Source: Bacillota bacterium
GTDB lineage: Bacteria > Bacillota > Sulfobacillia > Sulfobacillales > Sulfobacillaceae
DNA: 47,572 nucleotides
Assembly: GCA_021797825.1 (NCBI GenBank)
Contig: JAJZZA010000020.1
Location: 1-47,572, forward strand
Reading direction: 5' to 3'
In this document: in pieces, positions 21,587 to 40,535 of the stretch
Layout of the letters: each line of letters begins with the position of its first letter
How positions within the stretch are numbered: the first letter of the stretch is position 1
Notes under the pieces: generated by a model
What the model saw: only the letters and a program-made list of their open reading frames with translations
Told to the model about the DNA's origin: nothing
Database searches by the model: none
Program-made: the position numbers and the translations under genes

Positions 21587-21744
21587 CGCATAGAGCGTTA
21601 ATCGGTCCGTAACGATTGCCCCTTCGCTAACAGATTAAATGGGGTCCGCAGGCGGCAGCCGGGTGAGCAGGGGCATCGGGGCGCCGCCCGACTCCGGTCC
21701 GCGCCCGCTCACGGCAACGGGGCCGAGCGCCCGGACTGCAGCCG

Positions 21745-22269
21745 TCAGTGGCCGTCGAGGGGACGGAACTTTTTCATCACCAGCGCCGGACGCCGGACGA
21801 GAGCGTGCTCAAGCTGACGGATCATGCGGGTTGTCCAAAATTCCCGGCGATCAATGGGGTGAACCAAAATGGTATAAAGACGCAACCGGTTCCCCCCCAA
21901 AATGTCGGTAAAGACCTGATCGCCGATCACGGCCGTGTTGGCCGCACGCGTGCCCATCTTGCGCATCGCCTGGCGAAACGCCCTGCGCCGCGGTTTGGCC
22001 GCTCGGGCGATGCTCATCATGCCCACCTGCGAGGAAAACTGTTTGACGCGCTCGCCGAGGTTGTTCGACACGATGCAGGTCACGAACCCCTGGCGGCGCA
22101 AGGCCAGCAGCCAACTCGAAAGCGCTTCCGGGGCGTCAGGCTGATTCCATCCCACCAGGGTGTTGTCGAGATCCATAATGATCCCGGTGATGCCTCGCGC
22201 CTTGAGGCGGGTCAAATCCAGGTCGTAAATCGATGCCACAAACAGCCGGGGTTGCAGGATTTTGATCAA
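21745..22269 (-). CDS. yqeG: YqeG-type HAD superfamily (subfamily IIIA) phosphatase
   Basis: About 174 residues from the TTG at 22269, which has a perfect AAGGAGG six bases ahead. This start gives the family length and N-terminus (LIKILQPRLFVASIYDLDL). HAD motif I is IIMDLDNTLVGWNQ, motif II is TCIVSNNLGER, and motif III/IV is AKPRRRAFRQAMRK with VIGDQVFTDILGGNRLRLYT. Related to phosphatidylglycerophosphatase/Gep4-like HADs, but the substrate in Bacillota is not settled. yqeG next to aroE is the Bacillus arrangement (yqeG-yqeH-aroE); yqeH is missing here. Confidence 0.9.
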   Translation of the reverse strand: MIKILQPRLFVASIYDLDLTRLKARGITGIIMDLDNTLVGWNQPDAPEALSSWLLALRRQGFVTCIVSNNLGERVKQFSSQVGMMSIARAAKPRRRAFRQAMRKMGTRAANTAVIGDQVFTDILGGNRLRLYTILVHPIDRREFWTTRMIRQLEHALVRRPALVMKKFRPLDGH

Positions 22270-22457
22270 GGGCGGCCTCCTTGTGATTCCCATTGCCCCC
22301 AGTATATCATCCGAGCAGGCTCCGCAACACGGCTTGTCCCCGCCATTGCCGGCCGATCGGCCGGAAAACTTGTCGGCCGCCATGAACAACATTCTTCGCG
22401 GAAGGACAGACTAGCCTGGCCGACGCGATGGACCGCGTGGCAAATTGGAGACGATGG

Positions 22458-22485
22458 TTGACAATTTCGTCGTCTTCGCTACACT
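22458..22485 (+). promoter_or_regulatory. suf operon promoter
   Basis: TTGACA (22458-22463) and TACACT (22480-22485) with a 16-bp spacer, 64 bases upstream of the sufC ATG. The -35 is perfect and the -10 has four matches. Expected start of transcription is near 22492. Confidence 0.75.
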
Positions 22486-22498
22486 AGGAACAGAAATA

Positions 22499-22532
22499 CT
22501 GAGTAGTTTACTCAGATATGAACGGTCCGTTC
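22499..22532. promoter_or_regulatory. Two palindromes in the suf leader (candidate operators)
   Basis: CTGAGTA GTT TACTCAG (22499-22515) has perfect 7-bp arms, and GAACGG T CCGTTC (22520-22532) has perfect 6-bp arms and abuts the sufC SD (AGGAGGT). Both lie just downstream of the promoter, where a repressor or a translation-blocking structure would act. Rrf2-family regulators (IscR/SufR-like) commonly control suf genes; none is encoded in the window, and neither palindrome matches a site I know. Confidence 0.55.
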
Positions 22533-22548
22533 AGGAGGTACAGACGCG

Positions 22549-23322
22549 ATGGCCTTGCCATTATTGGAAATTAAGGATCTTTTTGTCGAAATCAACGGCA
22601 AGCCCATCCTAAAGGGCGTGTCGTTAACCATCCGCGGAGGCGAGGTCCATGCGGTCATGGGACCCAACGGCACGGGCAAGACCTCTCTGGCCCAAACCCT
22701 GCTGGGCCACCCGAGCTACACCGTCACCTCCGGACAGATTTTGCTGGACGGACAAGACGTGCTGGCGATGAAGACGGACGAGCGGGGACGCAGCGGCCTG
22801 TTTTTGGCGATGCAATATCCCAGTGAAATATCTGGAGTCACCACGGCCAACTTCCTGCGCACGGCGATCAATGCGCGGCGGGGGGAAGGCCAGCAAATCC
22901 CCCTTAAAGAATTCCGTGATAAGCTTGACGCCGTCATGCGCTTTCTGGAGATGGACCCCAAGTTCGCCAATCGCTATCTGAACGAAGGATTTTCTGGAGG
23001 CGAAAAGAAACGCAACGAAATCCTCCAAATGTTAATGTTGTCGCCACGGGTCGCGGTGCTCGACGAAATCGACTCGGGCCTCGACATTGACGCCATCAAA
23101 GTCGTGGCCAAAGGGGTCAATTCCTTAAAGAGTCAGGACTTCGCAACCTTGTTGATCACCCATTACCAACGAATTCTGGATTATGTCAAACCCGACCAGG
23201 TGCACATCATGATGGAGGGACGGGTGGTGAAATCCGGCGATGCGCAGCTCGCCGAAGAATTGGATCGCAAGGGCTACGAATGGATTCGGAGCGAATTTGT
23301 CGCCGCCGGCTCCCATAGCTAA
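22549..23322 (+). CDS. sufC: Fe-S cluster assembly ATPase SufC
   Basis: ABC-type ATPase of the SufBCD scaffold. 257 residues: Walker [16 protein letters not shown] signature [16 protein letters not shown], Walker [15 protein letters not shown] and the switch His in [10 protein letters not shown]. The SufC-specific Q-loop region is [23 protein letters not shown] nine bases before the ATG. First gene of sufC-sufD-sufS-sufU-sufB, the Bacillus order. Confidence 0.97.
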
Positions 23323-23336
23323 AGGGGGGAACTGCC

Positions 23337-24614
23337 ATGAATTCAGTCACCGCTCAAAAAAACCCGGCAGATGTGCGGCACCTGCTCGAACAACGCTTCC
23401 GCGACGAGCCTTTGTGGCTGGCGGCCCGCCGCCGGGAACTCGCCGAGGCCTATGTCGAACACCCCCTGCCGCCAAGGCAGCGCACCCCGTTGAAGAATCG
23501 CAAACTGGAGCAAATTCCCATATTTGACGCGCCCGCCAGTGCCGCGCCGCTGACCTGGCGCGATGCGGGAGACGAAGCCCACCTGCGCCTGGTGGACGGG
23601 GTTGAGGAATCCCGCCACCTTCCGGCCACCCTGACGGAGCAGGGCGTGCTGCTGTTAAGCTTGGCGGAGGCCATACGGATTGCGCCGCAATTGGTCGAAC
23701 AATACCTGGGATCGGTGATCGATGAGCGGTCGGATAAGTTTCAAGCGCTAAATGGCGCGTTTTGGCAAAACGGCTTGTTCCTGTATGTGCCCCCCCGCAC
23801 CGAAGTCACCCTGCCGATTGCGGTGACGCACGCGGCCACTGCCGGACTGGCCGGATTTTTCCCGCGCACCCTCATCATTGCGGACCGTCAAAGCCGGGTG
23901 GTGGTCTCCGAACGCTATCTGTCAGCCCCCGGCGAGCGGAGTCTGGTCAGCGCCGCCACCGAAATTATTGCGCTCGACGGAGCCTCCGTGCAATACGGCT
24001 CCATCCAGCAGTTGGCGCCCAGCGCGGAGACATTTTCCCGCCGCGCCGGCCGGGTGGGCCGCGATGCCCGCATCGACTGGAACATTGGAGAATTCGGCGG
24101 CGGTCTGTTGGTCGCCGAACACCAGACCATTCTCGATCAGCCCGGCGGCCAAACCTCCAGCTTGACGGTATTTTTTGGCGGCCACCACCAACACCAGGAT
24201 TACACCGCCGAAAGTCGCCACGTGGCTCCGCATACCGGCAGCAACATGGTGGCCCGCGGCGTGATGAAGGACCACGCGCGGAGCGTTTTTACCGGCGTCA
24301 CCGACATTAAGCCGGGAGCCGTCGGCACCGATGGCCGGCAAAAAGAGCAAACCTTGATGCTGTCCCCGCATGCGCGCGCGGATGCGATCCCTTCCTTGCT
24401 GATCGAAGAACGCGACGTGTACGCGGCGCACTCGGCGAGCGCCGGGCCGGCCGACCGGTCGGCGATATTCTACTTGATGGGTCGGGGCATTCCCGAAACA
24501 GAGGCCATTCGTCTGATAGTTCATGGCTTTTTGGCCCCGGTAATCGATTCCATTCCGTTGCAGAGCCTCCGGGACGAGGTCTGGGAGGCGGTAGAAAGGA
24601 AGATCCGCGGATGA
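23337..24614 (+). CDS. sufD: Fe-S cluster assembly protein SufD
   Basis: Scaffold partner of SufB. 425 residues with the variable helical N-terminus (RTPLKNRKLEQIPIF) and the beta-helix core. The SufBD signature region includes VVVSERYLSAPGERSLVSAA, FFGGHHQHQDYTAESRHVAP, RGVMKDHARSVFTGVTDIKP and SPHARADAIPSLLIEERDVY, and the C-terminal helix has AAHSASAGPADRSAIFYLMG. The ATG follows sufC by 14 bases with SD AAGGGGGG, and its stop overlaps the sufS start. Confidence 0.95.
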   Translation: MNSVTAQKNPADVRHLLEQRFRDEPLWLAARRRELAEAYVEHPLPPRQRTPLKNRKLEQIPIFDAPASAAPLTWRDAGDEAHLRLVDGVEESRHLPATLTEQGVLLLSLAEAIRIAPQLVEQYLGSVIDERSDKFQALNGAFWQNGLFLYVPPRTEVTLPIAVTHAATAGLAGFFPRTLIIADRQSRVVVSERYLSAPGERSLVSAATEIIALDGASVQYGSIQQLAPSAETFSRRAGRVGRDARIDWNIGEFGGGLLVAEHQTILDQPGGQTSSLTVFFGGHHQHQDYTAESRHVAPHTGSNMVARGVMKDHARSVFTGVTDIKPGAVGTDGRQKEQTLMLSPHARADAIPSLLIEERDVYAAHSASAGPADRSAIFYLMGRGIPETEAIRLIVHGFLAPVIDSIPLQSLRDEVWEAVERKIRG

Positions 24615-25834
24615 CCCTGGCGCTAATGGACCGAAAAGCCGATTTCCCGATATTAACCCGAACCATTAACGGACATCGCCTGACCTATCTCGATTCGGCG
24701 GCCACCTCGCAAAAGCCCCGTTCGGTGATTGCGGCGATGAACCGCTTTTACGAAGAGACCAACGCCAATGTGCTGCGCAGTGTGCACACACTGGCGGAGG
24801 AATCCACCGAGGCCTTTCATCGCGCGCGCGTCAGCACGGCCGAGTTTATCGGCGCGGCGGGTTCGGAAGAGGTGGTCTTCACGCGCGGCACCACCGAAAG
24901 TCTTAACATGGTCGCCCGCGGGTGGGGAGACAAGTTTTTAAAACCGGGCGACGAGGTGGTCGTCTCCCCCATGGAGCACCACTCCAATTTGATTCCCTGG
25001 CAGCGCCTTTGTCAAAGAACCGGCGCCCGGCTGCGGTTCATTGAACTCAATGACGACGGCAGCCTGGCCATGGACCATGCCCGTGCGGTAATTAATGAGC
25101 GAACCCGTTTGGCCGCCCTCTCGCGGATCTCCAACGTGCTGGGCACGATCAACCCGATCCGCGAAATCGCCGATCTCGTGCACACCGTCGGCGGCATTAT
25201 GGTCGTGGACGGAGCCCAGTCGGTGCCGCACGAGCCCACCGCCGTCGCCGAACTGGGCGCGGACTTTCTGGCTTTCTCCGGCCACAAAATGTGCGGCCCG
25301 ACCGGCATCGGGGTGCTGTGGGGACGGGCGGAACTGCTGGACGCGTCGGATCCGGTCGATTTCGGTGGGGAAATGATCTCCTATGTCAATCGCGAGTCGG
25401 CGACCTGGGCGGACCTCCCCCACAAGTTCGAAGCGGGCACGCCCAACATCGCCGGGGCCATCGGGTTGGCGGCGGCCATCGAATATCTCAACGAGGTGGG
25501 CATGGCCAACATCGCGCAACACGGCCGCCAGTTGGGTGAGACCGCCTATCAGCGGCTCAGCCAGCTGCCGGGCGTCGCCGTGTTTGGCCCGCCTTCACCC
25601 CGCGCGGCGTTAGTCGCGTTCAATATCGACAAAATCCATCCGCACGACGTGGCACAAGTCTTCGATAGCCGAGGCGTGGCGATACGTGCCGGCCATCACT
25701 GTTGCCAGCCCTTGATGCACTGGCTGCACGCCGCCGCCACGGCGCGGGCCAGCTTTTATCTGTACAACCAGCCTGACGACATCGATGCCTTGGTTGACGC
25801 CGTGGAGGCGACAAAGAGGTACTTTACCATATGA
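24611..25834 (+). CDS. sufS: Cysteine desulfurase SufS
   Basis: PLP enzyme (group II) that removes sulfur from cysteine as an enzyme-bound persulfide and hands it to SufU. 407 residues. YLDSAATSQKPRSVI, VFTRGTTESLNMVA, SPMEHHSNLIPWQ, VDGAQSVPHEP, the PLP Lys in AFSGHKMCGPTGIGVLWG, and the persulfide Cys in RAGHHCCQPLMHW near residue 360. Overlaps sufD (ATGA) and sufU (ATGA). Confidence 0.97.
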   Translation: MTLALMDRKADFPILTRTINGHRLTYLDSAATSQKPRSVIAAMNRFYEETNANVLRSVHTLAEESTEAFHRARVSTAEFIGAAGSEEVVFTRGTTESLNMVARGWGDKFLKPGDEVVVSPMEHHSNLIPWQRLCQRTGARLRFIELNDDGSLAMDHARAVINERTRLAALSRISNVLGTINPIREIADLVHTVGGIMVVDGAQSVPHEPTAVAELGADFLAFSGHKMCGPTGIGVLWGRAELLDASDPVDFGGEMISYVNRESATWADLPHKFEAGTPNIAGAIGLAAAIEYLNEVGMANIAQHGRQLGETAYQRLSQLPGVAVFGPPSPRAALVAFNIDKIHPHDVAQVFDSRGVAIRAGHHCCQPLMHWLHAAATARASFYLYNQPDDIDALVDAVEATKRYFTI

Positions 25835-26247
25835 ATCTGGACGATCTCTACCGGGAAACCATCCTGGATCACAACCAGTCGCCCCGCAATCAGGGTCATC
25901 TCGAGCATCCGAGCAAGACCGTGGGGTTGCTGAACCCCACGTGCGGCGACCAGATTCAGTTGGAATTGCTGGTCGCCGGCGGCCAAGTCGCCGACATCCG
26001 CTTCAACGGACACGGCTGTTCGATCAGCATGGCCTCGGCCTCCATGCTGACGGAGGCGGTCAAAGGCCACTCCGTCGAACACGCGCTGCGGATTGCCCAA
26101 AGCTTCAAAAAATTTCTGATGGGCGAGAGCAGCCCGGTTGACTTGGGCGATTTGGCAATGCTTAAAGGGGTTTCCCAGTTTCCCAGCCGTGTGAAATGCG
26201 CCACGTTGGCACATAATGCCCTGGAGAAGGGGCTGGCAGAGGGTTGA
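25831..26247 (+). CDS. sufU: SufU zinc-dependent sulfurtransferase
   Basis: Accepts persulfide sulfur from SufS. 138 residues. LYRETILDHNQSPRNQG at the N-terminus, Cys38 in NPTCGDQ (with Asp40), Cys63 in GHGCSIS and Cys123 in RVKCATLAHNAL are the zinc ligands. The long spacing between the second and third Cys is the SufU-specific insertion that separates it from IscU. Its presence with SufS and no SufE or SufA is characteristic of Bacillota. Confidence 0.96.
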   Translation: MNLDDLYRETILDHNQSPRNQGHLEHPSKTVGLLNPTCGDQIQLELLVAGGQVADIRFNGHGCSISMASASMLTEAVKGHSVEHALRIAQSFKKFLMGESSPVDLGDLAMLKGVSQFPSRVKCATLAHNALEKGLAEG

Positions 26248-26334
26248 ACCCCTTAAAGCGCAACTGGCGGAAGGATTTGGCCGCACAATCGCAAGCGCGG
26301 GCAGTCACGGTCACTTGTTAGGAGGGGGATACGC

Positions 26335-27732
26335 ATGGCCACCAAGCCGTTCGTCAGCGACGAATACCAATATGGGTTTAACGACGGGGATGTCGGCGTC
26401 CTCAAGTTTCAACGGGGACTGACGCGCACCACCGTTGAAAACATCTCCCGGATTAAGCAGGAACCGCCGTGGATGCTGGACTTTCGCCTCCACGCGCTGG
26501 ATGTTTTCTGGAAGAAACCGATGCCGGGATGGGGAGCCAATCTCAAACCCCTGAACTTCGACGACATCGTCTACTACGTCAAGCCGTCCGAAAACCAGGG
26601 ACGCACCTGGGAAGACGTCCCGCAGGCGATCAAAGACACCTTTGAGCGGTTGGGCATCCCGGAAGCCGAGCGCAAGTTTCTGGCGGGCGTGTCCGCCCAG
26701 TACGAATCCGAGGTGGTCTATCACAGCATCCGCCGGGATCTGCAGGAAAAGGGCATTATCTTTACCGACACCGACTCCGCCTTGCGCGAATATCCGGAGA
26801 TCTTCCGGGAATACTTCGGCACCATCATCCCGCCCGAGGACAATAAGTTCGCGGCCCTGAACTCGGCGGTCTGGTCAGGCGGCTCGTTTGTCTACATCCC
26901 TAAAGGGGTTAAGACCGACATCCCCTTGCAGGCCTATTTCCGCATTAACTCGGAGAACATGGGGCAGTTTGAACGCACGCTCATCATCGCCGAGGACGAC
27001 TCCTTCGGACACTATGTGGAAGGCTGCACGGCGCCGATCTACGCCAGTGAATCGCTGCACTCGGCCGTCGTGGAAATCATCGTCAAGGATAACGCGCGCA
27101 TGCGCTACACCACGGTCCAAAACTGGGCCCCCAACGTGTATAACTTGGTGACCAAACGGGCCGTCGCCTACCAGAACGCCACCATGGAATGGGTGGACGG
27201 CAACATCGGATCCAAAGTCACGATGAAGTATCCGGCCGTCTATCTGCTCGGGGAAGGGGCCAAGGGCATGGTGCTGTCGATTGCCGTATCCGGCAAAGGC
27301 CAGCATCAAGACACCGGCGCCAAAATGATCCATGCCGCGCCCAACACCACCTCGACGGTGCTGTCAAAGTCCATCAGCCAACATGGCGGCAAGACCACGT
27401 ACCGGGGATTGGTACACTTCGCCAAAAATGCCGATGCGGCCAAGTCCAACGTCAAATGCGACACCCTGCTGCTCGATGACCTGTCCACCTCGGATACCAT
27501 TCCGTACAGTGAAGTCGAAAACGCCAACGCGGAAATGGAGCATGAAGCCACGGTGACCCGGGTCAGCGAGGAGGCCCTATTCTATTTGACCAGCCGCGGA
27601 CTGAGCGAGGAAGAGGCCACCCGCATGATCGTCATGGGGTTCATTGAGCCCTTTACCCGGGAGCTCCCCATGGAGTTTGCGGTCGAGATGAACCGCCTCA
27701 TCAAGTTTGAGATGGAAGGGGCTATCGGATAG
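26335..27732 (+). CDS. sufB: Fe-S cluster assembly protein SufB
   Basis: Main scaffold on which the cluster is built. 465 residues, normal length. Recognisable blocks: [80 protein letters not shown] (candidate cluster Cys), [20 protein letters not shown], and [31 protein letters not shown] before the ATG. An 87-base gap separates it from sufU. Its TAG shares one base with the GTG of the Rieske gene. Confidence 0.97.
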
Positions 27733-28043
27733 TGGCCTGGACAAGAGCGGCAGCGCTCGCCGAATTGACGGACGGCTGCCCGTTGCTGGCGATCGTGGGC
27801 GATGAAGAGGTTGCGTTATATCGGGTAAACGGTGCGGTGTATGCCACCGACGACCTGTGCAGCCACGCCGAGGCCTCCCTGGCCGAAGGCGATCTGCGCG
27901 GCTATATTATCGAGTGCCCGCGCCATGGCGGTGCCTTCGACATCCGAACCGGCGAGCCCAAGCATTTCCCGGCTTTTTCCCCGATTCGCACGTTCCCGGT
28001 AAAAATCGAAGAGGGCAGCATCTGGATCGATACCGAAGCCTAA
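27732..28043 (+). CDS. Rieske-type [2Fe-2S] ferredoxin
   Basis: 103 residues with the Rieske cluster ligands C43-x-H45 (DLCSHAEASL) and C62-x2-H65 (ECPRHGGAFD), like small ferredoxins of non-haem iron oxygenases and NirD. The start GTG overlaps the sufB stop by one base, so the gene is translationally tied to the Suf machinery. A Rieske protein at this place occurs in other Gram-positive suf operons; its role there (electron donor or cluster-assembly helper) is not established. Confidence 0.92.
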   Translation: MAWTRAAALAELTDGCPLLAIVGDEEVALYRVNGAVYATDDLCSHAEASLAEGDLRGYIIECPRHGGAFDIRTGEPKHFPAFSPIRTFPVKIEEGSIWIDTEA

Positions 28044-28045
28044 GC

Positions 28046-28086
28046 CCCACCTACCGCAGGAGGCGCGGCCTCCTGCGGTAGGTGGG
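28046..28086. terminator. Very strong hairpin after the suf operon
   Basis: A perfect 19-bp stem beginning CCCACCTACCGC, with a GCG loop, directly follows the Rieske stop codon and faces the convergent PLP-enzyme gene. No clear T-run follows on either strand, so it may serve both directions or protect mRNA 3' ends. Confidence 0.7.
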
Positions 28087-28156
28087 TTGGGTTAAAAGGT
28101 GTGCGGGCAGCCAGGACCATAATCAGGAGTCGGCTGACGCCCGTCGGCGGTTTGGT

Positions 28157-29383
28157 CTAACGGCTGGATGTGGGAGCCATCGCCACTGCAGCACGGGTGG
28201 CGGTCAGCAGGTCCTTGACGATGTCGTCGGGATTTTCAATCCCGACCGCAATCCGCACAGTTCCGTCCCGGATCCCCATGGCGGCCAATTCCTCGGCGGT
28301 CTGGTTGCGATGGGATGCAATGCGCGGGTAAAGGCACAAGGTGTACACGTCGCCGACTGTGGTCGCCGATCCCACCAAATTGAGTCCTTTAAGAAACCGG
28401 AACACCAGGTCGCGCGGGCCCGGCAGGTCGACCGTCACCACGGCTCCCCCCAAGCGCGCTCCAAACTGGCGCACCGCCAGCGCATGGGTAGGATGGTCCG
28501 GCAACAACGGGTGGTAGACGGCCGCAAACAAGCCGCTCGCGGCCAAGGCCCTGGCCACTTCTCGCGCGTTGTCGCATTGCCGCTCAAAACGGACCCCCAG
28601 TGTCTTCAGGCCGCGATGCAGCAACCAGGCTTCAAAGGGTCCCAGCACGCCTCCGCGGAGTTTTAAATACTGGTGCAAAGCGGAGGCATAGCCAATACCG
28701 CCCGCCACCACCCCACCCAAGGCATCCCCGTGTCCGCCGAGGTATTTGGTCGCGCTATGCACCACCAAATCGGCGCCCAGGTCAAGCGGGCGAACCATCA
28801 GCGGGGTAGCAAAGGTGTTGTCCACAATCACCTGACAGCCGGCCTGATGGCAGAGGTCGATCACCCGTTGCAGGTCGGGAACTTTGAGCAGCGGATTAGA
28901 CAGCGTCTCAAACAGCAGCCCCACCGGCTTGGCGTCGTTAAGCGCCCTGGCCAACGCCGCCAGGTCTGTCAAGTCAACCGCCAGCGTGCGCACGCCGCTC
29001 CGGCCCCACAAATTGTGCGTGAGATTGAGCGATGCCCCGTATAAGTCGCGGCTGATCAGCACCGCGTCGCCGCTCTTGACCCCGATGGCGTGCCAGGCGG
29101 CGTCGACCGCCGCCATGCCCGAGCCGAACGCCACAGCTTGGGCCGCGCCTTCCAAAGCGGCCACCGCGGACGCAAACGCCTCCACCGTCGGACTGCCATG
29201 GCGGCCATAGGTATACCCTTCCTCGTCCCCGGCCAAAATCGCGTCCATCCGCTCCGGAGAGTCCACCCGGTAACTGGTGCTGGGAAAAATCGCCGGGGAC
29301 GTAGGAATCTGTTGCAGTGTGCTGTCGGGGTTTCCCGCGTGCACCAGCAATGTGTCCAGAGACACCGCAGCAAGCTCTTTCAT
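28157..29383 (-). CDS. Cys/Met-metabolism PLP enzyme (cystathionine gamma-synthase/lyase family)
   Basis: 408 residues of the MetB/MetC/MetY/MGL fold. [63 protein letters not shown] and the PLP-lysine block [20 protein letters not shown] are diagnostic. The riboswitch upstream responds to SAM, so a biosynthetic role in the methionine branch (cystathionine gamma-synthase or an acylhomoserine sulfhydrylase) is more likely than degradation. Sequence alone does not separate these activities or methionine gamma-lyase. No other met gene is adjacent. Confidence 0.85.
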
Positions 29384-31185: not shown

Positions 31186-31578
31186 TTATTTTTTTTTGTC
31201 GGCCTGTGCTGCTTCCCCGTCGCTCAGTTCCTGCAAGATCTTACGGACCGCCCGCTTTTCAATTCGGGAAACATAGCTTCGCGAAATTCCCAGTTTAACC
31301 GCAATGTCCCGCTGGGTCAGGCGGGGATGACCATTTAACCCAAACCGCAGATCGATGACCAATCGCTCTTTGCGGGTCAGCGACAGCACAAATTTGCGCA
31401 CCCATTCCATCACCACCGCCAGTTCGACCGTATCGGGAACAATATCGGCATCGGTTCCGAGCACATCCAGCAGCGAAATTTCATTGCCTTCCCGGTCAAC
31501 CCCGATGGGGTCATAGAGGCCTACCTCCCGGCTGTTTTTCTTGCGGGCGCGAAGGTGCATCAACACTTCGCCATTGAT
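31186..31578 (-). pseudogene. sigK: 3' half of sigma-K (SpoIIIC-like), lacking the 5' half
   Basis: Mother-cell sporulation sigma factor, C-terminal half only. From INGEVLMHLRARKK on, the translation follows SigK: YDPIGVDREGNEISLLDVLG, LTRKERLVIDLRFGLNG, then the region 4.2 helix-turn-helix TQRDIAVKLGISRSYVSRIE with KRAVRKIL, ending in Lys-rich ADKKK. Upstream of Ile-Asn the similarity stops abruptly although the frame stays open into lipA. SigK regions 1.2-2.4 are absent from the whole window. B. subtilis sigK is interrupted by the skin element at this spot (CIENE|ILMHLR). No convincing SD precedes the ATG at 31560, arguing against a separate gene. Confidence 0.85.
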
Positions 31579-31718
31579 GCCGGCTGGCGGCGGAAATTCG
31601 TGGCTGGCGCCCCATTTGCCGCCAACCGCTGCCCGGGCGAGGACCGCCGGCACGCTTTTCGACCCGGCTTGCCGACAACCCGCGATGGCCATCCCCCAGC
31701 CTGGGCGTCTCCCCGCGG

Positions 31719-33239
31719 CTAGCTTAAGCGGGGGCGGGCCGCGGTCGGGGACCCCGCAAAGCGTTCCGCGCGGTAGGAGCTGCGCACCAAAGGACCGGCT
31801 GTCACGTCCACAAAACCCATGGTGAGCGCAATCTCTCGGTACCACCCGAACTCCACCGGATGGACATATTCCATCAGCGGCGCGTGCCGGTCGGACGGCG
31901 GCAAGTACTGGCCCAGGGTCAAAAAATCGCACCCCGCGCGCCGCAGCTCCGCGAATTCGCGGATAACCTCACCGCGCGTCTCGCCCAGGCCCAAGATGAT
32001 GCCGCTCTTGGTGGATAACCCCAGGCGTTTGGCGTACTCGAGCACCCCGAGCGTCCTCCGGTAATTCTTTCGCGGCTGGATCGCCGGGTAAAGCCGCGGC
32101 ACGGTCTCCAGATTGTGATTAAGCACATCGGGGCGCGCTTGACAAACGGCGTGCAATGCCGCCAGGTTCCCGGCAAAATCCGGAATGAGGACTTCAATCG
32201 TCGCCACCGGCAGGCGCTGCCGCAGAGCCTGGATGGTGCTCACAAAATGGCCGGCGCCGCCGTCGGCCAAATCGTCGCGAGCCACCGCAGTGACCACCAC
32301 ATGGCGCAAGCCCAATTGCGCGGCCGCAGCGGCCACTCGCTGCGGCTCCTTTGCTTGCAGTGGCTGCGGTCGTCCGCTGGCCACCCCGCAAAACCGGCAG
32401 TGGCGGGTGCAAACCGCGCCGCCGATCATAAAGGTGGCGGTCCCGGCGCCCCAACATTCGCCGAGGTTCGGACACAGCGCGGCCTCGCATACGGTGTGTA
32501 AATCCCGCTGGCGCAACAACGCCTGCAATCTTTCTACGGCCGCCCCTTGCGGAGCCGGCGCGCTCAGCCCGGGCGCGGTTTGAAAACCCCACGCCCAGGT
32601 CGCCGCGTCCGGTTTTCCCTCCAGCGCCACCCATTCGTCAAACCACCACCGCGCAATGACGTCCAGGCTATGGGATTGCCCGGTGACGGCGGCAATCGAG
32701 ATGACCCCGCGATCGGCCAGGCCACACGGCACAATTTGACCGAACGCCGTTAAATCCGTGGTGACGTTTAACGCCAATCCATGGTAGGTAACATCATCTT
32801 GGCTGGCCAGCCCGATGGCCGCAATTTTATCCGTGCCCACCCACACCCCGGGATATTGCGGGTGCCGCTCGGCCACAACCCCCAACCGGCGCAAGAGCCG
32901 GATGGTCGCCTCTTCCAAGCGATCCGCCACCTCGTGCAGTTGGCCCGGTCCGACACGCATGATGGGATACACCACCATTTGACCGGGGCCATGGTATGTC
33001 GCCCGGCCGCCCCGATCGGTTGATACCAGATCCGTCCCTTTGACCTTTAGTGACTCTTCAGCGACGCGCACATCCTCGGTGCCTCCTCCCCGTCCCAAGG
33101 TAATGGTCGGGGGGTGTTCGACCCACAGCAACAGGTTGCCGACCTCGTCAGCAGCCCGTAAGGCGCGATAGGCCCGTTGCAAGGCGAAGGCCTGGCGATA
33201 GTCCAGCCGTCCGCAGCGGATGACAGTCCACCCGGTCAT
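31719..33239 (-). CDS. LipB-LipA fusion: octanoyltransferase plus lipoyl synthase in one ORF
   Basis: 506 residues with no internal stop. Residues 1 to about 225 are LipB: STDRGGRATYHGPGQMVVYP, the catalytic Lys in TDKIAAIGLA, YHGLALNV and catalytic Cys in QIVPCGLADRG. From about residue 245 it is LipA: auxiliary-cluster Cys in LHTVCEAALCPNLGECWG, radical-SAM CTRHCRFCGVASGRP, TAVARDDLADGGAGHF, VLNHNLETVPRLYP and the terminal VRSSYRAERF. The usual KPxWL start of LipA is replaced by a short Ala/Pro linker. It would attach octanoate from ACP and then insert both sulfurs. ATGA overlap with the E3 gene places it in the dehydrogenase operon. Confidence 0.93.
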   Translation of the reverse strand: MTGWTVIRCGRLDYRQAFALQRAYRALRAADEVGNLLLWVEHPPTITLGRGGGTEDVRVAEESLKVKGTDLVSTDRGGRATYHGPGQMVVYPIMRVGPGQLHEVADRLEEATIRLLRRLGVVAERHPQYPGVWVGTDKIAAIGLASQDDVTYHGLALNVTTDLTAFGQIVPCGLADRGVISIAAVTGQSHSLDVIARWWFDEWVALEGKPDAATWAWGFQTAPGLSAPAPQGAAVERLQALLRQRDLHTVCEAALCPNLGECWGAGTATFMIGGAVCTRHCRFCGVASGRPQPLQAKEPQRVAAAAAQLGLRHVVVTAVARDDLADGGAGHFVSTIQALRQRLPVATIEVLIPDFAGNLAALHAVCQARPDVLNHNLETVPRLYPAIQPRKNYRRTLGVLEYAKRLGLSTKSGIILGLGETRGEVIREFAELRRAGCDFLTLGQYLPPSDRHAPLMEYVHPVEFGWYREIALTMGFVDVTAGPLVRSSYRAERFAGSPTAARPRLS

Positions 33240-34600
33240 AGCTGCCGGGTCACCTCCCTGGCGGCGTCGGCCAGGGCCTCGGACACGGTGGGATGGCCAG
33301 GCAAAATCGCCGCCAAATCTTCCGCCAACCCCTCTAAACGCACCGCCAATGCCGCTTGTCCGATAATTTCCGAAGCCATCGGCGCCAACATGTGCACCCC
33401 CAGAATCTTGCCATAGCGCCGCTCGGCCACCACTTTAACCAAACCTTGGTTTTGATCGAGCAAAACCGCGCGGGCGTTAAAGGACAAATCCGCCTGACCC
33501 ACCACCACCTCATAGCCTTGCGCGGCCGCTTGGGCGGCCGTCAACCCGACGGCGGCCACTTCCGGCGCACAATGATAGACGCGGGCATGCCCCCGCGGAT
33601 CAAAATGGGCGGTCTCGCCCAAGGCGTTTCGCGCCGCCACCTCACCTTGTCCCCGGGCCCAATGCGAGAGCATGCGTCCTCCCGTCACGTCGCCGGCCGC
33701 CAACACCCCGGCCACCGGACTTTGTTGCCGGTCATCGGTGCGAATCGCGCCATCATCGCGCAGCGCTGCTTCGCCCAAGAGCGCTTGGCCCCGGGGCCGG
33801 CGGCAATCTGCCACCAAAAACCGATCGGCCCGGATCCGTTCTCCCGGCCCCACCGCCCAAATCGCCGGGGAATCGGATTCCAAGGAGCTTACCGGCCAGC
33901 CGGTGCGCACCTCGATGCCCGTTTCCGTCAGCAAAAACGCCAGCGCCTCGGCAATGTCGGCATCCTCTCCCGGCAATAACTGCGCGCCGGGTTCCAGCAA
34001 AATGACCTGGCTGCCCATCGCCCGAAAAAATTGCGCCCATTCCACCCCGATAAAAGATCCGCCGTACACGATGATGCGCCCGGGCAACTCCAGCATCCCC
34101 AGCGCATGGTCGGTGGTCCACACTTGCGACGCTTCGATGCCCGGAATTTTAGGCAAGCTAAAGGCCGCGCCCGTGGCCAGCAATACCGCCGAGGTTTTGA
34201 GCTCAGTGCCATGGGCGCCGTTGACCAAAACCACCGGTTGCGGTGCCAAGCTGAGGCTGGCGGTGCCCGCAAGATACGGCACCCGCAACTGCCCCAAAAA
34301 ATGAGCGGTGCCCCGGTAAAGATGCTGGACCAGGGCGTCGCGCGCGTCGATGATTTGGTCCCAAGCCGGCGCTCCCGCAGCATCCGGTATGCCCCAGCGA
34401 TGCCCCTGGGCCGCATCCAGGCGATGGCGCCGAATCTCCATGGTGGCGACCGTGGGCACACATCCCCGATGAAGACAGGTGCCACCGGCGAGCTCGCGGT
34501 CGATGAGAACCGCACTCGCCCCCAGCCGGGAGGCTTCCGCGGCAGCGGCAATCCCCGCCGGACCGGCCCCGACAATGATTAAATCGGCGTCGGCCGTCAT
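33236..34600 (-). CDS. Dihydrolipoamide dehydrogenase (E3)
   Basis: FAD disulfide oxidoreductase that reoxidises dihydrolipoyl groups. 454 residues: FAD site IIVGAGPAGIAAAAEASRLG, redox disulfide GGTCLHRGCVPT (two Cys separated by four), NAD-binding IIVYGGSFIGVEWAQFF, AAGDVTGGRMLSHWA and the C-terminal His-Glu region LPGHPTVSEALADA. The block after the second Cys (VPTVA) departs from the usual IPSK. ATGA overlaps with both E2 and the LipB-LipA gene. It may also serve the glycine cleavage system, which has no L-protein gene in its cluster. Confidence 0.93.
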   Translation of the reverse strand: MTADADLIIVGAGPAGIAAAAEASRLGASAVLIDRELAGGTCLHRGCVPTVATMEIRRHRLDAAQGHRWGIPDAAGAPAWDQIIDARDALVQHLYRGTAHFLGQLRVPYLAGTASLSLAPQPVVLVNGAHGTELKTSAVLLATGAAFSLPKIPGIEASQVWTTDHALGMLELPGRIIVYGGSFIGVEWAQFFRAMGSQVILLEPGAQLLPGEDADIAEALAFLLTETGIEVRTGWPVSSLESDSPAIWAVGPGERIRADRFLVADCRRPRGQALLGEAALRDDGAIRTDDRQQSPVAGVLAAGDVTGGRMLSHWARGQGEVAARNALGETAHFDPRGHARVYHCAPEVAAVGLTAAQAAAQGYEVVVGQADLSFNARAVLLDQNQGLVKVVAERRYGKILGVHMLAPMASEIIGQAALAVRLEGLAEDLAAILPGHPTVSEALADAAREVTRQL

Positions 34601-35787
34601 ATACCACCGTCCTCCGCGACAAATGCCAGGCCCGGATGGGCAATATAGTCGCTTAAGGTTTTAAGAAATTGGGCGGCCGGCGCCCCGTCCAGCAAGCGGT
34701 GATCAAACGTCAGACTTAAGGTGGTGTGGGGCCTGACCACAACGGCGCCGTCCCGCACCGCCGGCTTAAGCTCGACGCGTCCCACGCCTAAGATGGCGCA
34801 TTCAGGCTGATTGATAATCGGGGTAAACGCATCGACCCCAAACATGCCGAGATTGGTGATGGTAAAGGTGCCACCGGTCACGTCGTCCACGCTGAGCGTG
34901 TTCTCTCGCGCCGCCTGAGCCAGTCGGGCCAGCTCGCCATCCATGGCGGCCAAGCCCAGGCGGTGGGCGTCACGCACCACCGGAACAATCAGACCGTCGT
35001 CCAAGGCCACCGCGACCCCCAAATGGACCTGTGGCAAAAGATGGATGCGCTCCCCAACCAGCGTGGCGTTCAGCCGGGGATGGCGTTTTAGGGCCGCCGT
35101 GGTCAAAAATGCCAGAACGCTGGTCAGGCTAATCCGCGACGGTCTGGGGGCTGATTCCTGCAGGACGATAAGTTCTCCGGCATCCACCTCGGTCATCAGG
35201 GTCACCGGCGCCGTCTCGCGCAGACTTTGCGCCATCCGCTCGGCGATCGCCGCCCGCATGCCGGCAAAAGGCAGCGTCGTCCACGCGGTCTGGCCGTCTG
35301 CGGACGGCGACGGCTCGATTGGGCGGCCGGCGCTGGCGTAGGCTTCGACATCTTGTTCTTGAATCCGGCCCCCGGGACCGGTGCCGCGCACCCGGGACAA
35401 GTCGACCCCGCGGTCGCGGGCCAACCGCTTCGCCGCCGGGGTGGCCAAGACCGGACCGGCCGCTCGGGCCTCAGAGTCGGCGCGGGTGGAGGCCGGACTC
35501 CCTCCCGCGCCGGCGGCAGCGATGACCGCTGCCCCCGCGGGGAGCGATTCGCCGGCGGCCAGAACATAACCCAGCACCGCACCAATCGGGGCCTTGGCCT
35601 TCACTTCGGCCAAGTGTCGCACAATGCCCGCAGCGGGAGCCGCCACCTTATAGGTTATTTTCTTCGACATCACCTCCAGAATGGGCTGTCCCGCGGTGAC
35701 TTGCGCGCCGTCCGCGCACAGCCAGCGGCCCACCTCGCCCTCGCTCATCGCCATGCCCAATTTTGGCATAATAATCGCCTCTGCCAC
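34597..35787 (-). CDS. acoC: Dihydrolipoamide acyltransferase (E2) of a 2-oxoacid/acetoin dehydrogenase
   Basis: 396 residues in three domains: lipoyl (1-80, IIMPKLGMAMSEGEVGRWL), a peripheral-subunit-binding domain (about 115-150, TPAAKRLARDRGVDLSRVRG), and the catalytic core (from about 165) ending LSLTFDHRLLDGAPAAQFLK with the active-site His. The lipoyl Lys is expected at Lys43 in EVMSKKITYK; the usual DKA triad is SKKI-like here. GTG start with AGGGGAG. The neighbouring acoX-type gene points to acetoin rather than pyruvate as substrate, but this is inference; a PDH role remains possible. Confidence 0.85.
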   Translation of the reverse strand: MAEAIIMPKLGMAMSEGEVGRWLCADGAQVTAGQPILEVMSKKITYKVAAPAAGIVRHLAEVKAKAPIGAVLGYVLAAGESLPAGAAVIAAAGAGGSPASTRADSEARAAGPVLATPAAKRLARDRGVDLSRVRGTGPGGRIQEQDVEAYASAGRPIEPSPSADGQTAWTTLPFAGMRAAIAERMAQSLRETAPVTLMTEVDAGELIVLQESAPRPSRISLTSVLAFLTTAALKRHPRLNATLVGERIHLLPQVHLGVAVALDDGLIVPVVRDAHRLGLAAMDGELARLAQAARENTLSVDDVTGGTFTITNLGMFGVDAFTPIINQPECAILGVGRVELKPAVRDGAVVVRPHTTLSLTFDHRLLDGAPAAQFLKTLSDYIAHPGLAFVAEDGGI

Positions 35788-35841
35788 GGTATTCTCCCCT
35801 TTTGCGCACCGTGCCGTCGCGGGTGCGCACGATTTCTCCGC

Positions 35842-36828
35842 TTAACCCGGCGGTGCCGATGCTGCTTGAAAACATCGCCGGACATCCAGCACACGCGCAC
35901 CCTCAGCCACCTCGTGAACCGTCACCCGCTGGCGTGGGGACACCACCTGCTCACGCTCCCCGTCGAAAGCCAGGCAGCCGGCTGCTGGCTGCAAGGCGAC
36001 GGTCTCCCCCCAAAACACCGGGGATGTTTCCGCAATCGGGACGGCAGCCACCATTCCGGGCGCAATCGGGGCCAACACTTGGCGTCCGCCATCCCCAAAC
36101 CGGACATGGACCGCCGGGGGCGGGTCAGCCATGGCTCCCACCAAGGCCAGGGCTAAAGACCCCAGGCCCACTACGGGAATCTGGGGCGTCAGGATCACGG
36201 CTTCTCGCCACATCCGCCAGTCATAGATGGCCCGGCTGCCCGTAACCAGGTCACGGGTGGCGGCCACATCGACCAAAGCGCTATCGGCCGCCTGACCGTC
36301 AATCGCCACCTCCAGACGCGGATGGAAGCGGGTGACCCGCGCCACCTCGACCTGGCCCTTTGCCACCCAGCCGGCCGCCATGCCCGCCAGGGTGGCGTCA
36401 ATCATGACCGGGAAGGCGTTGTTGGTGCCCGTGGAGATCGCCAGCATGGGCACGCCGGCCGCCTCTTTGGCCACCAGCCGCTGGGTGCCATCGCCACCCA
36501 GGGCGACAATCACCCGCACCCCCTGCCGCACCGCATCCCGGGTCGCGGCTTGAGTATCGTCTGCGCTGGCCAAACCGGGAATGGCGAGCCACCTCACCTC
36601 GAAACGCCAGCGGCGTCCCGCGAGAGCCCGCTCGGCCAGCCCGCCCAAGTCCGGCATAACCCAGACCCGGGAGACGGCGAGCGCGTCCAGCGCCGCCAAA
36701 ATGCGCCGAAGGATCCCGATCTTGTCGATATCCGTAACGATCGGGGCGGGAGCCACCAGCCGCCGCACATCTTTTCCCGCTTGCGGATTGACGATCAGCG
36801 CAACGCTCCCGTCACACGCCAATTTCAT
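35842..36828 (-). CDS. acoX: AcoX-like protein (NAD-kinase-fold, acetoin catabolism)
   Basis: 328 residues. The diacylglycerol/NAD-kinase fold is shown by VALIVNPQAGKDVRRLV near the N-terminus and IVALGGDGTQRLVAKE followed by MLAISTGTNNAFP (GGDGT and TGTNN motifs). The C-terminal part (ALVDVAATRDLVTGSRAIYD, VGLGSLALA) fits the AcoX family found in acetoin dehydrogenase operons, whose biochemical role is unsettled. It overlaps the E1beta stop by 17 bases. Its presence is the main reason to call this cluster acetoin-type. Confidence 0.8.
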   Translation of the reverse strand: MKLACDGSVALIVNPQAGKDVRRLVAPAPIVTDIDKIGILRRILAALDALAVSRVWVMPDLGGLAERALAGRRWRFEVRWLAIPGLASADDTQAATRDAVRQGVRVIVALGGDGTQRLVAKEAAGVPMLAISTGTNNAFPVMIDATLAGMAAGWVAKGQVEVARVTRFHPRLEVAIDGQAADSALVDVAATRDLVTGSRAIYDWRMWREAVILTPQIPVVGLGSLALALVGAMADPPPAVHVRFGDGGRQVLAPIAPGMVAAVPIAETSPVFWGETVALQPAAGCLAFDGEREQVVSPRQRVTVHEVAEGARVLDVRRCFQAASAPPG

Positions 36829-37852
36829 GCCCCATCAGGGTGCGGATGACATGCCCGATGCGTTCGGCGGAGGGCACATAGAGGTCCTCCAAGACGGGGC
36901 TAAAGGGCACCACCGCATGCGGCGCGGTCACCATTTTGGGCGCTTCATCCAGGTATTCCAACGCCTCCGAAGCCACCAGCGCCACCAAGTCCGCAGCCAC
37001 GCTGCACCGGGGATTGTCCTCATCCACCACCACCAGCCGATGGGTCTTCCTCACCGAATTCAAAATAGTGGGGGCATCTAAAGGCGACAACGTCCGCGGG
37101 TCGACCACCTCCACCCCAATGCCGTGCGTTTTGGCCAGGTCCTCGGCCGCCGCCAACGCCAGGGGGACCATCCGCCCGATGGCCACCACCGTTACGTCGT
37201 CCCCCACCCGCTTCACATCGGCTTGGCCCAGTGGAATCACATATTCTCCGTCGGGCACCGGGCCTTCGACGTCATACAGCAGTTTGTGCTCAAAAAAGAT
37301 GACGGGATCGTTGTCGCGAATGGCAGCGGCCAAGAGTCCTTTCGCATCCGCCGGGGTGCTGGGAACCACCGTCTTTAGCCCGGGCATATGGGTAAACACC
37401 GAGTAGTGGCTGCCGGAATGCTGTCCAGCGGCGCGAAACCCCGCCCCGATCATCGTGCGCACCACCATGGGCACGGTGGCTTTGCCACCAAACATGTATC
37501 GCAGCTTGGCTCCCTGGTTATAGATTTGATCCATGCACACCCCGAAGAAATCCACAAACATCAGTTCCGCCACCGGCCGCAGGCCCGTCGCCGCGGCACC
37601 TACCGCGGCCCCGATGTAGCCCGATTCACTAATCGGGGTGTCCAGCACGCGGGCGCGCCCAAATTCCTGCACCAGTCCTTTGGTGACACCCAAAACCCCG
37701 CCCCAGGCTTCCTCCTGCCGGCCTTCAATGTGCTCTAAACTGGCGCCTCCGGCCACATCTTCGCCCATCACGATGACCGTCGGGTCTCGCCGCATTTCCT
37801 GCCGCAAAGCGTCGTTAATGGCTTCCCGAAACGTTATTTGACGCGTGGTCAT
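36812..37852 (-). CDS. acoB: Dehydrogenase E1 component, beta subunit
   Basis: Thiamine-diphosphate enzyme subunit, 346 residues from the ATG at 37852 (seven bases after GGGAGG). ITFREAINDALRQEMRRDP, VIVMGEDVAGG, RVLDTPISESGYIGAAVGAA, ELMFVDFFGVCMDQIYNQGA, AGFRAAGQHSGSHYSVFTHM and VVPSTPADAKGLL are standard for PDH/acetoin E1beta, including the TPP-activating Glu. Located between E1alpha (30 bases upstream) and acoX. Substrate, acetoin or 2-oxoacid, is not determined by these motifs. Confidence 0.9.
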   Translation of the reverse strand: MTTRQITFREAINDALRQEMRRDPTVIVMGEDVAGGASLEHIEGRQEEAWGGVLGVTKGLVQEFGRARVLDTPISESGYIGAAVGAAATGLRPVAELMFVDFFGVCMDQIYNQGAKLRYMFGGKATVPMVVRTMIGAGFRAAGQHSGSHYSVFTHMPGLKTVVPSTPADAKGLLAAAIRDNDPVIFFEHKLLYDVEGPVPDGEYVIPLGQADVKRVGDDVTVVAIGRMVPLALAAAEDLAKTHGIGVEVVDPRTLSPLDAPTILNSVRKTHRLVVVDEDNPRCSVAADLVALVASEALEYLDEAPKMVTAPHAVVPFSPVLEDLYVPSAERIGHVIRTLMGHEIGV

Positions 37853-37897
37853 GGCCATTCCTCCCATTTTGGCGTAGGCTTCGCATCCGCCTCCCGA

Positions 37898-38866
37898 TCA
37901 CGGATAGGACACATAAACATCTTCGAGCAAGGCCGCGTCCGCCGGATAGGCGCTGCTCTCGGCAAAATTGGTCGCCTCCGCGATCATGGTGGCCACCTGC
38001 CGGTCAACCTCGTCAAGCGCGTCCTCCGCCAAAAATTCCTGGTCAAGCACGCGGGCGCGAAACAGGGTCAACGGGTCATGGGCTCGCCACCGCGCTTCGT
38101 CTTCCGGAGTCCGATAGGTCAACGGATCCCCTTGGAAGTGCCCGTAAAAGCGGAAGCCCCGCGCCTCGATGAGGCTCGGCCCTTCGCCGCGCCGCGCCCG
38201 CTGAACGGCTTCATTGGCCACTTCGTACACGGCGAACACATCGTGCGCCGGCACCACCACGCCCGGCATATCGTAGGCCGCCGCCCGATCCGCGATGTTT
38301 TTGACCGAGGCATGATAAGTCCAGGGCGTGGATTCGGCAAAAAGATTGTTCTCACAGACAAAAACCACCGGCAGCTTCCAAATCGACGCCAGGTTCATCG
38401 CCTCGTGCATTGTTCCTTGCTCTGCGGCGCCATCGCCGAAAAAACAGACGGTGACGCCCTTTTTGCCCAGCGTTTTCAACGTCAGACCAGCGCCGACGGC
38501 CAAGGGACCCCCGCCGCCGACGATGCCGTTGGCCCCCAACATTCCTTTACCCACGTCCGCGATGTGCATGGAGCCACCCTTGCCCTTATTGGATCCGGTC
38601 GCCTTGCCAAACAATTCGGCCATCATCTCGCGCACCGAAACCCCCTTGGCGATGCAATGGCCATGTCCGCGATGGGTCGACGTGATGTAGTCGTCATCGC
38701 CGAGGTGAGCCATGATGCCGACGCCGATGGCTTCTTCCCCGGCATAAAGATGCACAAAACCCGGAATGCGTCCCGCTGCAAACAGTTCTGCCACCGCATC
38801 CTCGAAGGATCGAATGAGTTTCATCCGCTCATAGATCCACAACAGCCGCTCGCGCTGGATCTCCAC
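37898..38866 (-). CDS. acoA: Dehydrogenase E1 component, alpha subunit
   Basis: TPP-binding subunit, 322 residues from the GTG at 38866 (SD AAAGGGG; a TTG at 38893 with AGAGG is the alternative start). Motifs: YERMKLIRSFEDAVAELFAA, GEEAIGVGIMAHLGDDDYI, STHRGHGHCIAKGV, the TPP motif VCFFGDGAAEQGTMHEAMNL with VCENN, and MLGANGIVGGGGPLAVGAGL, a block typical of acetoin E1alpha (AcoA). First gene of the operon. Confidence 0.9.
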   Translation of the reverse strand: MEIQRERLLWIYERMKLIRSFEDAVAELFAAGRIPGFVHLYAGEEAIGVGIMAHLGDDDYITSTHRGHGHCIAKGVSVREMMAELFGKATGSNKGKGGSMHIADVGKGMLGANGIVGGGGPLAVGAGLTLKTLGKKGVTVCFFGDGAAEQGTMHEAMNLASIWKLPVVFVCENNLFAESTPWTYHASVKNIADRAAAYDMPGVVVPAHDVFAVYEVANEAVQRARRGEGPSLIEARGFRFYGHFQGDPLTYRTPEDEARWRAHDPLTLFRARVLDQEFLAEDALDEVDRQVATMIAEATNFAESSAYPADAALLEDVYVSYP

Positions 38867-38922
38867 GCGGCCACCCCTTTCCGTTTTAATCAACTTTTGC
38901 CTCTTTCGCCAATTCTCTGTCT

Positions 38923-38951
38923 ATTATATCGCTTGCTGGGGGGGTTGCGTA
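38923..38951 (-). promoter_or_regulatory. Promoter of the aco/lip operon
   Basis: On the minus strand a perfect TATAAT (38928-38923) with TACGCA (38951-38946) 17 bp upstream. The weak -35 suggests activator dependence. No sigma-54 (-24/-12) element was seen, unlike the Bacillus AcoR-controlled operon. Confidence 0.55.
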
Positions 38952-39120
38952 TCGGCCGCAAGACCTGGCCTGCACCGGACCGACCAGGCCACCATCAACC
39001 CCAAACGCGCGCGACCGCCTGCCCGCCCGACTGTTTAACTTCCCCGCGATTTGCCCGTCGTGCCCAAACAGCCCGGCCTGCGAGCTTTCACGGTCACCCG
39101 GAGGCTAGCGGCGCCACGGC

Positions 39121-39221
39121 GGGAAACCACTGTTCCCACCCCGGCTGAGCCAGCCGCGTGCGCTGGCTCTCCACCGCAAGAAGGTCCGGTCGCTTAGCAG
39201 GATTCCCGCCGGGGGTGGAGA
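39121..39221 (+). other. Structured leader upstream of the EAL gene
   Basis: Within the 335-base gene-free stretch 38930-39264, this part can fold into GGGAA/TTCCC (39121-39137), a perfect GAGCCAGC/GCTGGCTC hairpin with a 7-nt loop (39147-39169), and a longer stem TCTCCACC/GGTGGAGA (39168-39175 with 39214-39221). It stops about 44 bases before the EAL start. It does not match the c-di-GMP-I or -II riboswitch consensus that I know. Confidence 0.45.
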
Positions 39222-39264
39222 AGGATCCGGGTGGCGTCTTATTTCACGCGGCGGGAGAGTGCCC

Positions 39265-40470
39265 ATGGCCAAACGGGACCGGATAGCGCAAATTGTGGAC
39301 CAGGCGCTGGTCCAAAATGACATCGACCACGCGTTTCAACCGGTTTGGGATTTGAAAACCGCCCGTCTCATCGGATTTGAGGCGCTGGCGCGATTCCCCG
39401 GCGGGATGGCGCCAGACCGGATCTTTCGCCATGCTTTGATCCGCGGCCGCGGCCGCGCACTTGACGTGTTGTCAGTGCGGACCGCCGTTTATCAAGCCCG
39501 CAGCCTTCCCGGCGTCTTGTTCGTCAATAGCCATCCCGATCATTTGCTGCCCACTCCCGGTACCGCTGCGGGCTCCGTCCTGTCGGCCATCACCCGCTAT
39601 CGGCGGCGCGACGCGCTGGTGCTGGAAATCACCGAGGCCCCGGACCACGACCGGCAGTTAGCCATGGCAGGCTTAGAGCGCGTGCGCCATTTGGGGATCC
39701 GGGTGGCGTTGGACGACGCCGGCACCCGCGCATCCAACGTCGGCCGCCTGCGCTGGGTGCATCCCCGTTACATCAAGATTGATCGCAGCCTCATCGTCCG
39801 CGCCCGGACCGGTCGCGAAAAATCATTGCGGCAGTGGGTCAAGGCCGCGCAGCAAATCGGCGCCACGGTTATTGCCGAGGGCGTGGAAGATCCCGAGTGG
39901 GGCGAGTGGCTCGTGGCCCTTGGCATCGACTGGGTGCAGGGCTACGGCTTTGGCAGACCCGAACCGGCGGCAAGATGGGCCGCGACTCTGCTGGACGCCA
40001 CGCCGCCCATCCATTTGACCGCGGCACTGGCCTCATACAGCCCGCCCGCTTTCGACCAGTGGACCACCCCGGCTCCGCCCATGAGCAACCGCGAGGTGGG
40101 GGAGCTGTTGTTCGACAGTCTGCCCTTTCCGGTCTTTTTTCTCGATGACCAAGGGGCTTTGGCTGGTCTTAACCGGGAGGCTGGCCGATTTTGGGAGGTG
40201 GCGTTGTCCCCCCTCACCCGCCAGCCTTGGCAACAGGCTTTGGGCATTCGGAGCATAACCCCGCCGCTCCCGCCCGCTGCCGAGCTGGCGGCACCTTATT
40301 CCGCGAACACGCATCGGGTGGTCAAACACGACGGACGCGACCTGCTGATAACGCTCCTGATCTACCGGGTCGAAAAGCAAAGTCGCGCCCACCTGGCGGT
40401 CATGGTGGCGGACAATCCCCTGCCCAACAGCCGCGGGCACAATCTCCCCCAGCCGCCCGGCACATTGTAA
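39265..40470 (+). CDS. EAL-domain c-di-GMP phosphodiesterase with C-terminal PAS-like domain
   Basis: 401 residues, no membrane segment. EAL domain (about 15-260): FEALARF (ExLxR), FVNSHP (Asn), LEITEAP (Glu), LDDAGTRASNVGRLR, YIKIDRSLIV, VIAEGVEDPEWGEWL and QGYGFGRPEP. The metal and general-base residues appear kept; the usual DDFG loop reads DDAG. A PAS-like sensor follows (LLFDSLPFPVFFLDDQGALA with GLNREA). It probably hydrolyses c-di-GMP to pGpG under control of the C-terminal domain. The ATG at 39265 follows GGGAGA. A membrane GGDEF gene starts 65 bases downstream, so one operon could hold opposing enzymes. Confidence 0.85.
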   Translation: MAKRDRIAQIVDQALVQNDIDHAFQPVWDLKTARLIGFEALARFPGGMAPDRIFRHALIRGRGRALDVLSVRTAVYQARSLPGVLFVNSHPDHLLPTPGTAAGSVLSAITRYRRRDALVLEITEAPDHDRQLAMAGLERVRHLGIRVALDDAGTRASNVGRLRWVHPRYIKIDRSLIVRARTGREKSLRQWVKAAQQIGATVIAEGVEDPEWGEWLVALGIDWVQGYGFGRPEPAARWAATLLDATPPIHLTAALASYSPPAFDQWTTPAPPMSNREVGELLFDSLPFPVFFLDDQGALAGLNREAGRFWEVALSPLTRQPWQQALGIRSITPPLPPAAELAAPYSANTHRVVKHDGRDLLITLLIYRVEKQSRAHLAVMVADNPLPNSRGHNLPQPPGTL

Positions 40471-40535
40471 GACCGCCTGCCGAGCGCTACGATGAAAATG
40501 GGCGCGCGGCGCGCGCGGAGGGAGGGGGGATTAAA

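Follow-up and report, generated by a model that had tools for sequence, protein, structure and literature searches.

In Bacillus subtilis, sigK is split within the stretch encoding CIENE by the skin element (spoIVCB / skr-spoIVCA / spoIIIC), a defective prophage, and SigK carries a pro-sequence. The small skr gene (64 aa) lies directly upstream of the large serine recombinase gene spoIVCA, overlaps it by 101 nt, is needed for skin excision and has been named a directionality factor (PMC6957869). The split sigK of Clostridioides difficile is restored when its skin element is excised by the large serine recombinase CD1231 together with the small factor CD1234 (PMC5025042). Alicyclobacillus phage MMB025, a complete infectious phage of 105 kb, integrates in sigK (PMC13141910), while the Bacillus cereus gin element, which is non-viral and encodes a serine recombinase and a directionality factor, splits the sporulation gene gerE and carries restriction-modification and recJ genes (PMC5595907).

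The element described here is of the skin type and thus of a known kind; new are the lineage, the cargo and the attP centres, which read either GA or TC relative to the recombinase. The window, an entire contig (C131) of 47,572 nt, belongs to the draft genome of an uncultured relative of Sulfobacillus (3.59 Mb in 156 contigs, 97.5% complete, 2.3% estimated contamination), and no report of a skin-type sigK rearrangement in this lineage was found in the open-licence literature. The locus shares with B. subtilis skin the break in the CIENE stretch, the SigK pro-sequence and a large serine recombinase with a small gene directly upstream, likened to skr by position, but holds catabolic cargo in which no phage gene was found. 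A split sigK with a large serine recombinase and a small factor is likewise common to C. difficile, whose skin differs in its site and orientation within sigK and whose SigK lacks a pro-sequence. MMB025 has the nearest phage recombinase, a small ORF before it and an attP behind it, although this attP is centred on GA and not on TC relative to the recombinase. The gin element is similarly non-viral but contains no catabolic operons. The features of the window are listed in Table 1.

Table 1. Features of the interrupted sigK locus in the window (positions 1 to 47,572)
Feature	Position	Strand	Basis
3' half of sigK	31189..31569	-	SigK profile match and comparison of att sites
attR central dinucleotide GA, within the CIENE Glu codon; predicted site of crossover	31568..31569	-	common to attL and attR of every element aligned
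attR element arm, forming an imperfect inverted repeat with the attL arm of C101 (16/30 positions)	31570..31612	-	arm comparison
inserted DNA within the window, from the lipB-lipA fusion to GntR; ends in a multi-copy repeat	31719..47572		no match to relatives' sigK neighbourhood; Pfam; contig-end repeat
chromosomal neighbourhood conserved downstream of sigK, flanking the 3' half on its outer side	17463..29383		many relatives have these genes downstream of their intact sigK

As an earlier note on this DNA had claimed, the window holds only the 3' half of sigK, encoding the C-terminal part of the protein (SigK profile positions about 109-226). The SigK models PRK05803 and TIGR02846 matched the ORF at 31186-31932 (minus strand) solely from profile position 109/111 to the end, over a stretch of 131 aa with E-values of 3e-44 and 9e-44, respectively. 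Together with these values, the scores of the SigE models, which were about 40 bits lower, place the assignment to SigK far beyond chance. Profile searches detected no SigK similarity in the upstream part of this frame, open to 31932, just as the note had stated, and no second SigK C-half elsewhere among the contigs of the genome. Its placement of the start of the SigK part required a small correction: the native part starts at 31569, because the alignment of attL and attR puts their common GA at 31568-31569, and the leading residues ING of the matching stretch are encoded by inserted DNA.

The missing 5' half had been predicted to lie at higher coordinates and to end in ARCI(E)N. The direction was right, but the half sits in the same genome on a different contig (C101:31554-31901, minus strand) rather than in the window. 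Here the SigK model match extends over C101:31536-31871 (minus strand; profile positions 5-117), the ATG at C101:31901 is preceded by GGGAGGGAG, and the N-terminal half begins with a pro-sequence-like hydrophobic stretch and ends in ...CARCIENE. A short core common to both halves had also been anticipated and was identified as GA within AAYGA. Joined at this GA, the two halves, both open and without stops, gave the in-frame SigK reading ...CARCIENEVLMHLRARKK..., which scored 316.2 bits against the curated SigK cut-off of 298.65, while each half alone remained below it at about 150-159 bits. No complete sigK, the finding named beforehand as contradicting an interrupted gene, was found in the profile search of this genome, which is 97.5% complete. 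A match on contig C46 (positions 17-226, 254 bits) was considered as a complete sigK and rejected; it represents SigE and has a SigG-like match beside it. The remaining sigma-factor matches corresponded to SigE and further sigma factors, with no second SigK among them, and SpoIIID as well as other sporulation sigma factors were present.

The window contains no SpoIVCA-type recombinase gene, and a large serine recombinase had therefore been expected outside it, beside the 5' half, unless the locus were a relic. Such an enzyme is encoded at C101:29948-31495 (plus strand; 515 aa; Resolvase, Recombinase and zinc-ribbon domains by Pfam). Its gene is convergent with the sigK 5' half and its stop lies 57 bp from the attL core, an arrangement next to the 5' half as in B. 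subtilis skin. The recombinase is full length and retains the invariant residues of an alignment with about 11-12 homologues. In a tree of 37 recombinases, from which B. subtilis SpoIVCA and CD1231 were left out, the nine Sulfobacillales recombinases located at sigK formed one group with a support of 100/99. Two Desulfotomaculales sigK enzymes, the MMB025 enzyme and the enzyme of an Alkalihalophilus plasmid formed a less well supported group (85/81) near the Sulfobacillales enzymes, and the clostridial sigK recombinases fell in another part of the tree, a further difference from the C. difficile system. MMB025 also provided by far the best phage match, with 36.8% identity.

Related recombinases were encountered on several mobile sequences. 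The 37-kb circular "plasmid" of Alkalihalophilus pseudofirmus (NZ_CP144225.1; L197 1495-3050) carries one that is preceded by a small ORF and followed by a palindromic attP centred on GA; this molecule may represent a sigK element excised as a circle, or a phage. Five viral contigs (L221, L222, L223, L230 and L238) encode a recombinase of the same family with the 3' half of sigK immediately behind it, so that sigK prophages with this recombinase family also exist. On viral contig L232 (3105-3341), a sigK fragment located shortly behind a related recombinase reads uninterrupted across the insertion site; the remainder of sigK was not recognisable there.

Directly upstream of the recombinase lies a small ORF of 62 aa, with AAGGAGG followed by GTG. 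Small ORFs occupy the same place in most relatives, phage MMB025, the plasmid and the viral contigs, some of them overlapping the recombinase start. The skr-like ORF is under purifying selection, with Nei-Gojobori dN/dS values of 0.19-0.30 in three pairs, while synonymous sites were saturated in the fourth. Its position and this selection make it the likely gene for the predicted excision or directionality factor. An NCBIfam scan of three small ORFs found no family, and the search for a sigma-E promoter upstream of the skr-like gene returned nothing convincing above shuffles.

Across all aligned elements, the last codon of CIENE contains the GA that attL has in common with attR. Around this GA, the reconstructed attP arms form imperfect inverted repeats, matching at 24 of 30 positions in genome G012, 23 in G020, 16 in the genome studied here and 10 in G003. 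Free attP sites behind the recombinase, read in recombinase direction, were centred on GA in MMB025, the plasmid, L226 and L227 and on TC in L219/L220 and L225. These palindromes match at 15-18 of 25 positions, compared with 14 at the 95% point of 500 shuffles, of which the best reached 17; the weakest of them (L227, 15/25) is just above chance. The attP centre corresponded to the side on which the recombinase is found: it adjoins the 3' half where the centre is GA (G002, G003, G018, G021, G028, WH4.bin11 and several viral contigs) and the 5' half where it is TC (this genome and G030). G000, with a TC centre, grouped with the GA-centred G002 and WH4.bin11 at a support of 99/100, which indicates that the switch between GA and TC happened within a close group. 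In other serine integrases the central dinucleotide sets polarity. By analogy, an attP centred on GA or on TC relative to the recombinase would explain the opposite insertion orientations of sigK elements.

Among the 25 genomes of the family, this one included, sigK was split in eight and intact in 16, and none was detected in the remaining one; three further splits were observed in outgroup genomes from another family of the same order. All split genomes are broken at the same codon, and in the relatives the recombinase is located within the element. The whole element spans 2.7 kb in G003, a finished chromosome, about 5 kb in G018 and G021, and about 14 kb in G010. Its cargo comprises Dps and a Fur/PerR-like regulator in G003 and SurE and undecaprenyl-diphosphate phosphatase in G018, while the G021 and G010 elements contain ORFs similar to those of these two genomes and G010 in addition has apparent aromatic-catabolism genes, read by eye. 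The cargo of the relatives looks non-viral as well. In the WH4.bin11 sigK element (L101 1-8391), ORFs resembling, by eye, a reverse transcriptase and an AbrB-PIN toxin-antitoxin pair were seen.

Closer examination of G031 revealed a contig that spans a joined sigK and whose last 99 nt, starting from the core GAG, overlap exactly with a contig carrying the 3' half behind attR. Overlaps of this sort arise in assembly at points where two genuine sequences converge, which suggests that the sample held both joined and interrupted sigK and hence real excision, although a strain mixture would give the same pattern. The search for the attL contig of G031 gave weak matches only. One contig of S. benefaciens AMDSBA1 (L151) breaks off within a sigK that is continuous across the insertion site; this end may be another assembly break between the joined and interrupted forms, and no matching contig for it was present among the loci examined.

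The outer flank of the 3' half and that of the 5' half (C101:33379-42669) match the sigK neighbourhood of many relatives. The inner DNA, on C101 reaching up to position 29613, is without match to this neighbourhood, save for scattered common enzyme families. According to Pfam, the window side encodes a LipB-LipA fusion, E3, E2, an AcoX-like kinase, E1-beta, E1-alpha, EAL, GGDEF, SDR, aldehyde dehydrogenase, MFS and GntR proteins. The C101 side encodes an acyl-CoA ligase, a CoA transferase III, a sodium symporter, a PucR-type regulator, two amidohydrolases, ABC/CbiQ transport, a nitrilase-type hydrolase, several dehydrogenases, an altronate-type dehydratase, an enolase-family enzyme and GntR regulators. 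The lipBA-aco-c-di-GMP genes, proposed beforehand as part of an element extending past the window, lie inward of the break and do not belong to the conserved sigK neighbourhood. The sequenced interior amounts to 31.5 kb on C101 and 16 kb in the window, and these 47.5 kb are a lower bound, provided that the interval is one block, as both contigs stop in multi-copy repeats (window 47430-47572 and C101:1-160, several genome copies each). These repeats differ from one another, and the end of C131 showed no overlap with the start of C101. A Pfam scan of the main ORFs detected no phage structural or replication genes and no conjugation genes in the sequenced 47.5 kb, the gap between the contigs being unsequenced. 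Prophage identity of the element was rejected, as no phage genes were found inside the sequenced parts.

Several individual ORFs deserve mention. A single fusion protein of 506 aa (window 31722-33239, minus strand) combines LipB with LipA; canonical separate lipA and lipB are located on contig C153, so that the window lipBA represents an accessory second lipoylation set. Within the inserted DNA, an EAL-domain ORF overlaps a GGDEF-domain ORF as called (39259-42314, plus strand; second start uncertain), and the end of C131 runs into a possible transposon-type ORF. A 355-aa ORF (29871-30938, plus strand) between the sigK 3' half and the conserved neighbours had no match in the sigK neighbourhood of relatives and no Pfam match at E 1e-5; its HPHLQ motif recalls GalT/HIT-type proteins.

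We consider it very probable that a sigK-intervening element of the skin type splits sigK at the last CIENE codon and would be excised in the mother cell, with both contigs presumably belonging to the same element. In the vegetative and spore line sigK would stay split, while in the mother cell the recombinase and the Skr-like factor would recombine attL with attR at the central GA, the element would leave as a circle and one in-frame pro-sigK would be restored. The interruption by a recombinase-excised element, as first proposed from the window, has gained the 5' half on C101, the adjoining intact recombinase, the common core and the in-frame join scoring above the family cut-off; excision in this organism and the joining of the contigs as described are inferred. 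The skin-type reading is further based on the relatives split at the same codon with a recombinase, the single recombinase group, the best phage match to a sigK-integrated phage, the selection on the skr-like ORF, the conserved outside and foreign inside, the G031 overlap and the presence of SpoIIID. Against it stand the two unlinked contigs, both ending in multi-copy repeats, the lack of a recognised sigma-E promoter, the 16/30 match of the attP arms, and an interior far larger than those of the relatives and of other make-up.

The repeats at both inner contig ends, as well as a recombinase adjoining the 5' half whereas those of the nearest relatives adjoin the 3' half, would also fit a small G003-like element that was later broken by repeat recombination, leaving between the halves DNA that is in part ordinary chromosome instead of a single excisable block. 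This we regard as unlikely, since the sequence immediately behind each att arm does not belong to the sigK neighbourhood, lipBA is an accessory copy beside the canonical genes, and the attP centre alone accounts for the changed recombinase side; even if inverted, attL x attR would restore sigK through inversion. More doubtful still is a relic, inserted as described but no longer excisable, in a cell without SigK that completes sporulation poorly or not at all. The accumulated cargo and multi-copy repeats, excision unobserved in a genome assembly and the unrecognised mother-cell promoter are compatible with decay, but the full-length recombinase with its invariant residues, the intact skr-like gene, the open halves with their in-frame join and the retained spoIIID and other sporulation sigma factors argue against it. 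A half gene produced by a chimeric contig or a binning error is highly improbable despite the fragmented draft and its estimated contamination, as both halves lie in conserved outer neighbourhood and ten other genomes, one of them a finished chromosome, break at the very same codon; a chimeric contig was rejected because independent assemblies are broken at this same base.

The skin-type reading places this sigK rearrangement in the acidophilic Sulfobacillus lineage, in which the relative G003 has a finished chromosome. The chances appear about even that a catabolic island of at least 47.5 kb is removed from the mother cell by programme at sporulation and that the family switches orientation via an attP centred on GA or TC. 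The opposite orientations of sigK elements would thereby obtain a simple, testable cause in the attP central dinucleotide. The locus also suggests that an element in sigK does not have to be a prophage and can gather metabolic operons, which would then be lost from the mother cell. If this is true, sporulation would strip the mother cell of carbon-catabolism and c-di-GMP genes.
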